Below are positions 35,166 through 36,616 of a stretch of 64,000 nt of DNA, piece by piece (the stretch's first letter is position 1; every line of letters begins with the position of its first letter). Under the pieces are notes generated by a model. The model ran no database searches. It had not been told where the DNA came from and worked only from the letters and a program-made list of their open reading frames with translations. The translations under genes were made by a program, and so were the position numbers. Source of the DNA: Sphingobacteriales bacterium (GTDB lineage Bacteria > Bacteroidota > Bacteroidia > Chitinophagales > CAIOSU01). The stretch lies in assembly GCA_027483645.1 (NCBI GenBank), contig JAIXUD010000002.1:124001-188000 (forward strand), in the 5' to 3' direction.

Positions 35166-35894
35166 TCACACCACCTTCGCCAGCGCCAACTCCAATTGAT
35201 GCTCGATGGCATCCACGCTGTTGTATAGCTGCTCGTATGAGTCGATGATGTAGTATTCCACCTGGAACTTCTCCTTTACATAAGGACTGTTGAAGATAGC
35301 CTGTATATCGAAAGGTTTGCGCTGTGGCACCTCAGATTCCAAAGAATACACCGATTCGCCGATGGAGGACAAGATGCCCGCTCCGTAAATCTCGGTGCGA
35401 CCATGTTCTTTTATCAATCCAAACTCAATCGTAAACCAGTATAGGCGGCTCATGAGCTCCACTGCCCATGGGTTGTTAATGTGCTTGAGCGCAATGCGGC
35501 TGATGCCTTGCAAGAAATCGACGTATGGCTGGTTTACCAGCAGCGGCATGTGGCCAAATACGTCGTGAAACATATCGGGCTCCTCTAAATACTCCAGTTC
35601 GCTCATCTTGCGTATCCAGGTAGTTGCAGGGAATTTCTTTTCGGCCAACAGCTCAAAGAAGTGGTCGTCTGCCACTATACCGGGTACTTCGTAAATAACC
35701 CAGCCGGTAAGTTTTGCCAAGCGCTCGTTTACCTCACTAAACTTAGGGATGCGGTCGGGCTCAAAGCCTGCCAGTTCAATCCCTTCGAGGTAGGCGGCAT
35801 TGGCTCGGCCTTTCAGGTTTTCGATTTGCTTGCCGAATAGGATAGACCATACCTGATGGTTCTCCGCGGTGTATAGGTCGTATTGTTGTTTCAT
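35166..35894 (-). CDS. phhA: Phenylalanine-4-hydroxylase
   Basis: Iron- and pterin-dependent aromatic amino acid hydroxylase that converts phenylalanine to tyrosine. The 242-residue length matches the single-domain bacterial type without a regulatory domain. The active-site motif is DMFHDVFGHMPLL, which supplies the two iron-ligand histidines, followed by the FTIEFGLIKE segment with the glutamate ligand, and the C-terminal GAGILSSIGE. The leader between 36150 and the start carries a predicted tyrosine-responsive attenuator, which implies an anabolic role in making tyrosine rather than only breakdown. Confidence 0.95.
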   Translation of the reverse strand: MKQQYDLYTAENHQVWSILFGKQIENLKGRANAAYLEGIELAGFEPDRIPKFSEVNERLAKLTGWVIYEVPGIVADDHFFELLAEKKFPATTWIRKMSELEYLEEPDMFHDVFGHMPLLVNQPYVDFLQGISRIALKHINNPWAVELMSRLYWFTIEFGLIKEHGRTEIYGAGILSSIGESVYSLESEVPQRKPFDIQAIFNSPYVKEKFQVEYYIIDSYEQLYNSVDAIEHQLELALAKVV

Positions 35895-36023: not shown

Positions 36024-36060
36024 AACAAAAAAAGGCCCACTCCAAATGGGGCGGGCCTTG
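36024..36060 (-). terminator. Intrinsic terminator of the phhA attenuator
   Basis: The minus-strand RNA reads AAGGCCCGCCCC, loop AUUU, GGAGUGGGCCUU, then a run of seven U. Ten base pairs plus a G-U pair and one A-C mismatch form the stem. It lies 130 bp upstream of the phhA start and downstream of a short Tyr-rich reading frame. Confidence 0.88.
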
Positions 36061-36112
36061 TATCTATATTATTAGAGTATCAAAACACTATCCCCTATTT
36101 GCCTGTTGGCAA
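36043..36112 (-). promoter_or_regulatory. Antiterminator and pause hairpin of the phhA leader
   Basis: Minus-strand RNA segments: segment 1 and 2 pair as UUGCC-AACA-GGCAA (36099-36112). Segment 2, CAAAUAGGGG (36092-36101), also pairs with CCCCAUUUG (36043-36051), the loop and part of the 5' arm of the terminator, giving 9 pairs with one bulged A. The pairings 1:2, 2:3 and terminator 3:4 are mutually exclusive, as in classical amino-acid attenuators. Confidence 0.68.
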
Positions 36113-36150
36113 TAGTAAGCGGGATAATAACTGTTGATACGAATGTTCAT
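36088..36150 (-). CDS. Tyrosine-rich leader peptide of phhA, 20 residues
   Basis: ATG at 36150, stop TAG at 36090-36088 (minus strand). The peptide contains the block YYPAYY at residues 8-13: four Tyr in six residues, in a 20-residue peptide. The last two Tyr codons end just before segment 1 of the leader RNA. A ribosome stalled on them would cover segment 1 and let segment 2 pair with segment 3; a ribosome reaching the stop codon would cover segment 2 and let the terminator form. The downstream gene makes tyrosine, so the codon choice fits the product. Confidence 0.65.
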   Translation of the reverse strand: MNIRINSYYPAYYCQQANRG

Positions 36151-36616
36151 GACGTGAAGGTAATGCGATTATAGTGCCAAAACAATAGAAACAAGCTTTT
36201 TCGTTAAATTATTGTTCGTTGGCTATTTGTACTCATTCATCAGTATAATATACTACCGATTATTCGGTAAGGGTTAGTACTGATATTACCTGTAAATACA
36301 TATTTTTGCATCGTTAAACCCTTGATTTGTGCCATTCATCGGTTGTTTTTGTCTGTTCACCGAGTATACATCAATCAAATAAACTATCCGTAGTATATTT
36401 GCCACTGTAATAAATGGGACGTGATAAAAGATTAACAAAATACTTAACGAGTGCCTAGATTAATTCAACGGCTAATTTATTCCGTTTAACGATTTGTTGT
36501 GGCGCATTGAGAACATTAAGATTAATATTGCGTTGTATTTATGAAACTATTGGGGCACAATACATTGTTACATCAATAAGTAAGTATCATTTTTTAAAAA
36601 CAAAAAAATATCTGCC
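36151..36616. other. Regulatory spacer between the phhA leader and the ArsR-like gene
   Basis: 466 bp, AT-rich, no gene. It must hold the phhA leader promoter (minus strand) and the promoter of the ArsR-like gene (plus strand). Two adjacent small palindromes are visible, AGTAT-aat-ATACT (36242-36254) and TACCGA-ttat-TCGGTA (36254-36269). The minus strand reads TACCTTCA just before the leader ATG, a poor -7 match. No other feature is seen. Confidence 0.5.

Follow-up and report, generated by a model that had tools for sequence, protein, structure and literature searches.

A predicted tyrosine-sensing transcription attenuator ahead of phenylalanine hydroxylase genes in Bacteroidota

Why should a gene for phenylalanine hydroxylase, an enzyme that annotation usually reads as catabolic in the large group of bacteria concerned, be preceded by a short reading frame crowded with tyrosine codons and then by a transcription terminator? 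The locus lies on the minus strand of the window (the whole stretch of DNA analysed, 64,000 nucleotides), and all coordinates below refer to that strand. The gene, phhA (35166..35894), encodes a phenylalanine 4-monooxygenase of 242 aa, as judged from NCBIfam models NF008877 (283 bits, cut-off 247) and TIGR01267 (265.2, cut-off 264.75), from a match to PF00351, and from its closest solved relatives, which are bacterial phenylalanine-4-hydroxylases. We consider it highly probable that the region ahead of it regulates phhA as a ribosome-mediated transcription attenuator responding to charged tRNA-Tyr, and that the enzyme serves tyrosine synthesis. The anatomy, its conservation, the correspondence between codons and operon content, the predicted folds and the gene content are observations; stalling, termination, the response to tyrosine and the start of transcription are inferred without expression data.

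The leader frame, MNIRINSYYPAYYCQQANRG*, occupies 36088..36150 (20 codons by translation; ATG 36150-36148, stop codon UAG 36090-36088) and is the Tyr-Tyr-Pro-Ala-Tyr-Tyr frame from which the initial annotation had argued. Its four Tyr codons (8, 9, 12 and 13; TAT TAT CCC GCT TAC TAT, 36112..36129) fall within six codons; that the frame is translated is itself inferred. Between it and phhA, the first gene, a pattern scan and folding place an intrinsic terminator, AAGGCCCGCCCC-AUUU-GGAGUGGGCCUU plus seven U (36027..36059; -18.6 kcal/mol), with its stem at 36059-36032 and the U run at 36033-36027. This terminator had also been recognized initially, and it is kept in relatives. The spacer from terminator to phhA (36026-35895) is filled with many imperfect inverted repeats, ATTGGTTATTGG / CCAATAACC, as it is in the genus relatives.

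Three further segments complete the predicted switch. Segment 1 (GUAUCAA + UAUUAUCCC, 36121..36140) is the 5' arm of the 1:2 hairpin in the minimum free energy (MFE) fold, and overlaps Tyr codons 8-9. Segment 2 (36077..36103), defined by folds made with a ribosome in place, comprises the 3' side of that hairpin and the antiterminator 5' arm (CAAAUAGGGG at 36101-36092); the stop codon falls inside it, agreeing with the position first proposed. Segment 3, the antiterminator 3' arm CCCCAUUUG (36043..36051), lies within the terminator 5' half and loop, so that the antiterminator CAAAUaGGGG/CCCCAUUUG joins 36101-36092 to 36051-36043. The initial annotation had taken a small hairpin, UUGCC/GGCAA (36112-36108/36103-36099), as segment 1; that pairing is present, but it is only a minor part of a far larger 1:2 hairpin, GUAUCAA/UUGAUAC plus UAUUAUCCC/GGGGAUAG(UG). 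The earlier reading was thus right in substance, while overlooking this larger hairpin and, as described below, the leaderless start and the variants that combine Tyr with His codons.

Homologous leaders were found in three genus relatives (G002, MNNNSNIYYPLYYAPLVDRE; G003, MNFTSNIYYPAHYVPQVHRG; G004, MSFTSNIYYPAYYVPQVHRG), and despite diverged DNA their elements are arranged as in the window, with matching alternative folds. The YYPxYY motif is kept through synonymous TAT/TAC changes, with one change of Tyr to His in G003. A 1:2 hairpin is again predicted, its bases differing in places. The antiterminator as first described stands in the window, but only its GGGG:CCCC core is common to the relatives; the CAAAU:AUUUG half is found in the window genome alone, and in the relatives the helix grows in the opposite direction (GGGGAUAGGU / GCCUGCUCCCC). 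Compensatory changes are few, because only four sequences are available in the genus. A fifth genome, G001 (78% complete), gave no phhA match.

For a broader view we collected 199 phhA loci by tblastn coordinates and dereplicated them to 170. To count as a strict leader, an ORF upstream of phhA had to be 8-45 codons long, to have 4 or more Tyr within 10 codons, and to be followed by a terminator. Such leaders occur at 43 of the 170 loci on the sense strand and at none on the antisense strand. When all twenty amino acids were compared for leader enrichment, Tyr came top and Leu second (29 sense, 12 antisense). Counting weighted His along with Tyr relaxed the definition and yielded 70 dereplicated leaders, for instance the MNFTHNTYYYYYQAPKG.. 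of Marivirga and the MINSNAYYYHYYHNP.. of Roseivirga. Whether leaders of phhA homologues share the Tyr-rich frame and terminator was a question raised by the initial annotation, and at these 70 Bacteroidota loci they do. Diverged as they are, 51 of these leaders have their stop codon and terminator 20-41 nt apart, and the peptides share runs of Tyr with no fixed arrest motif. No such leader was found within 450 nt of phhA at 100 of the 170 loci. In Cyclobacteriaceae the leader is absent within 450 nt at 22 of the 42 dereplicated phhA loci, roughly half (L011, L015 and L025, for example).

As a control, we searched both strands of 0.82 Mb of flanking sequence from which the regions upstream of phhA were excluded, and obtained one leader-like match. 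This match, in a MAG (L050), consists of MNNIYYYYYRFKEIGVSGVCS and a terminator, and it stands ahead of aminotransferase-tyrA-phhA (L050:781-3735; the tyrA product scores 350.5 bits with NF006307). In L050 both routes to tyrosine seem to share one attenuator. The tyrA gene of another genome, G005, has no convincing Tyr leader ahead of it.

Computational folding, which had been suggested at the outset, shows that the leader region of the window is more structured than chance would allow: its MFE is -46.9 kcal/mol, whereas 200 dinucleotide shuffles give -27.7 +/- 3.4 (z -5.6) and not one of them is as stable. Without a ribosome the long 1:2 hairpin forms, Tyr codons 8-9 in its 5' arm and the stop codon in its 3' arm, leaving the terminator free. 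With a ribosome placed at the Tyr codons, the RNA preceding the complete terminator folds to CAAAUaGGGG/CCCCAUUUG or to the GGGG:CCCC core, and with a ribosome at the stop codon of the window the antiterminator cannot form. In a partition-function model, sequestration of the terminator 5' arm is accordingly 0.82 when the ribosome sits at Tyr, 0.00 when it has reached the stop codon and 0.01 in its absence; a shuffled intervening region gives 0.45. The same model applied to the 70 leaders gives sequestrations of 0.69 for stalling at Tyr and 0.19 for arrival at stop, with the former exceeding the latter in 67 of them (Wilcoxon 5e-13). In the models, then, the antiterminator excludes the terminator, being freed at the Tyr codons and masked at the stop.

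The pairings themselves vary in how well they stand out. Complementarity of segment 2 to segment 3 beats shuffles across the leaders (mean z -1.99; p<=0.05 in 40 of 70), and this, together with the modelled response to ribosome position, bears out the alternative pairing that had been predicted for homologous leaders. For the window, the 2:3 pairing taken as an isolated duplex is no better than shuffles (p 0.23, or p 0.62 with the shorter arm), while the co-transcriptional fold that contains it modestly beats them (-18.0 vs -12.1, p 0.024). The window protector UAUUAUCCC/GGGGAUAG overlaps the regulatory codons, and protection is weaker across the phylum, where sequestration of the terminator arm without a ribosome has a mean of 0.38. 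At equilibrium the terminator is dominant wherever the ribosome sits in the window and two of its three relatives, and most probable in the third; the switch must therefore be kinetic, as is usual for attenuators.

Promoters and start signals in Bacteroidota differ from those of E. coli, and the leaders are placed close behind a promoter of this kind. In the window a predicted -33 element, TTG (36183..36185), is separated by a 20-nt spacer from a -7 box, TACCTTCA (TAnnTTTG type, 36155..36162), which ends 4 nt ahead of the leader ATG. Of 69 leaders, 29 have a TAnnTT[TCG][GCA] box ending at exactly this distance from their start codon, where 0.3 would be expected, and the spacing from TTG to the -7 box is mostly 19-20 nt. 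For Flavobacterium psychrophilum the sigma-A -7 box has been located between -12 and -5, and only 5.5% of mRNAs are leaderless (accessible text of PMC9723704). Combining the two distances puts the predicted transcription start at the A of the ATG, and the leader mRNA is probably leaderless, its start site being an inference. Upstream of this promoter, at 36270-36253, is a weak terminator-like hairpin, TTACCGAATAATCGGTAG, of which the scan expects about one by chance.

Operon content offers a further line of evidence. Downstream of phhA, many Cytophagales carry hisH, mostly accompanied by hisA and hisF, and some have their phhA behind DAHP synthase; phhA heads a phhA-hisH-hisA-hisF cluster at L027:2950-6062, at L036, L003 and L075, and at other Cytophagales loci. 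Leaders at the phhA-his loci mix Tyr and His codons, as in MNPTPRTYIHHSHYYLQ of Algoriphagus. For 69 dereplicated leaders the sequence downstream was long enough to judge: two or more His codons occur in the Tyr cluster of 28 of the 29 with his genes after phhA, against 0 of the 40 without. The sole exception, L059, has hisH but neither hisA nor hisF within 3 kb. The two traits are phylogenetically clustered, each changing five times on the best PhhA tree, and well supported branches provide only one independent pair, too few for a sign test; with so few independent events, the raw p-value of the association is inflated by shared ancestry. With that caution, we read these operons as a natural experiment in which leader codons appear to follow operon content. 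Since the His codons come with his biosynthesis genes, codon starvation fits better than a nascent-chain sensor. Queuosine is common to the tRNAs for Tyr, His, Asn and Asp, and we had entertained it as the reason for the His codons; that idea was dropped, as His codons track his genes.

We hold it rather likely, with less assurance than we have for the attenuator of the window, that leaderless leader peptides with a start codon at +1 occur phylum-wide and that their regulatory codons change with the gain and loss of genes in the phhA operon: only Tyr where the operon is phhA or aminotransferase-tyrA-phhA, and both Tyr and His where it is phhA-hisHAF. If this is true, the codon content of a leader would tell which amino acids an operon makes.

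The gene content of the genus agrees with a biosynthetic role. TyrA (PF02153) was not detected in any of the five genus genomes, of which two are at least 97% complete, nor was HgmA (homogentisate dioxygenase) detected in the genus; it does have pterin-4a-carbinolamine dehydratase (PF01329), which recycles the pterin. None of the 7 family genomes (G000 included) gave a match to prephenate dehydratase (PF00800), for which all 14 control genomes match; each of the seven has chorismate synthase. Tyr thus seems to be made from Phe in the genus and not to be degraded by way of homogentisate. These findings, together with the L050 operon and published genetics in Echinicola (PMC7311316), support the initial inference that the enzyme serves tyrosine synthesis here. 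With no TyrA detected in the genus of the window, its tyrosine supply would depend on oxygen, the pterin cofactor and phenylalanine.

In Echinicola vietnamensis, phenylalanine hydroxylase (PAH) is important in some defined media, and the genetics point to a biosynthetic role (accessible text of PMC7311316). Two other Echinicola species (L036 and L071) have a Tyr leader, and their phhA precedes hisHAF. Transposon phenotypes of Echinicola PAH mutants could partly reflect polar effects on histidine synthesis, a possibility that follows from this gene order in L036 and L071 and not from E. vietnamensis data.

A link between the leader and TyrA loss was considered and rejected as a rule. Within the order, leaders occur in 22 TyrA-negative genomes and 0 TyrA-positive ones, but in another set of genomes TyrA is present in 18 of the 24 that have a leader, and loss of TyrA is therefore no condition for it. 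Weak PF02153 matches (about 20-39 bits) were scored as absence in this comparison.

The attenuator would work as follows. Transcription would start at the leader ATG or a few bases off. With ample Tyr-tRNA, the ribosome would pass the four Tyr codons and reach the UAG, covering segment 2, and the terminator would form before phhA. With scarce Tyr-tRNA, the ribosome would stall at the Tyr codons and break the 1:2 hairpin; segment 2, now freed, would pair with the emerging terminator 5' half, and RNA polymerase would continue into phhA. If the leader went untranslated, the 1:2 hairpin should form and termination follow. There are no transcript data, so actual control by tyrosine remains inferred.

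A possible objection is that the peptide, rather than its codons, is what matters: it might arrest the ribosome on free tyrosine or phenylalanine, in the manner of TnaC, and so induce phhA for catabolism. Proteobacterial phhA is indeed catabolic (the Pseudomonas PhhR system, as described in the accessible part of PMC1173090), and the YYPxYY peptide motif is conserved within our genus. We nevertheless give this reading only slight weight, for across the phylum the peptides have Tyr runs in place of a fixed arrest motif, His codons accompany his biosynthesis genes, HgmA was not detected in the genus, a Tyr leader stands ahead of tyrA in L050, and the models favour read-through when the ribosome stalls at Tyr codons.

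It could also be argued that some protein, a T-box or a different ligand-binding RNA governs the terminator region and that the Tyr-rich frame is incidental. Strong structure in the region would suit such control, as would weak sub-threshold Rfam matches to Thr_leader and PyrR. Hardly any credit can be given to it, however, when no Rfam family reaches its gathering score, Tyr enrichment is specific to strand and amino acid, and the frame has its start locked to the promoter and its stop to the terminator. That leaves an ordinary terminator of an upstream transcript behind a chance reading frame. Intrinsic terminators alone are common, and the window genome has 121 TATTAY..TAYTAY sites, compared with 104 for a reversed control. 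Among the 95 pattern matches listed of these 121, only the phhA leader has convincing architecture (L251, a second Tyr-rich candidate, was set aside, as its frame and weak hairpin precede no same-strand gene in the stretch examined), and the leader is conserved in genus and phylum. The comparative data already contradict chance, which we regard as practically excluded.

If the attenuator of charged tRNA-Tyr that we prefer is correct, the enzyme would be made only when tyrosine runs short. Tyrosine and a composite Tyr and His form would join the amino acids sensed by classical attenuators, which would be extended, with explicit anatomy, across Bacteroidota. The regulatory codons name the product, and thereby back phenylalanine hydroxylase as an enzyme of tyrosine biosynthesis. 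GapMind had proposed that it makes tyrosine in Dyella, Legionella and Echinicola (PMC7311316); the role is the same, regulation is not described in the accessible text of that paper, and here regulatory codons indicate the role in many Bacteroidota. Pseudomonas phhABC encodes an orthologous type of enzyme but is catabolic and activated by the sigma-54-dependent protein regulator PhhR, with no leader described in the accessible part of the source (PMC1173090).

The initial annotation knew of no such leader for this gene, and we too found none in the open literature or Rfam. No Rfam family reaches its gathering score, the best sub-threshold hits being Thr_leader (24.2 vs 55 bits) and Trp_leader (20.8 vs 41). 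No tyrosine leader peptide of this kind was found in the open literature, subscription papers (notably Lopatovskaya et al. 2010) being outside our scope. A list published in 2005, drawn from a prediction database, included attenuators ahead of tyrA operons in other phyla (accessible part of PMC1173090). Closest by phylum are those of F. psychrophilum, where there are strong clues to leader-peptide attenuation upstream of amino-acid biosynthesis operons; tyrosine is not among them in the main text of PMC9723704, and overlap with candidates in its supplement is not excluded. The class of mechanism is therefore known, and, as far as the open literature goes, what appears to be new is the Tyr specificity of a phhA leader, together with its leaderless start and the variants that have both Tyr and His. 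Like the trp, his and phe leaders of E. coli, the phhA leader combines a short ORF rich in codons for the end product, a stop codon in segment 2, a 1:2 protector, a 2:3 antiterminator, and a 3:4 terminator with its U run. Unlike them, it uses Tyr (or Tyr and His) codons, serves a target that is not a shikimate-branch operon, and stands behind a Bacteroidota promoter with its ATG predicted at +1.
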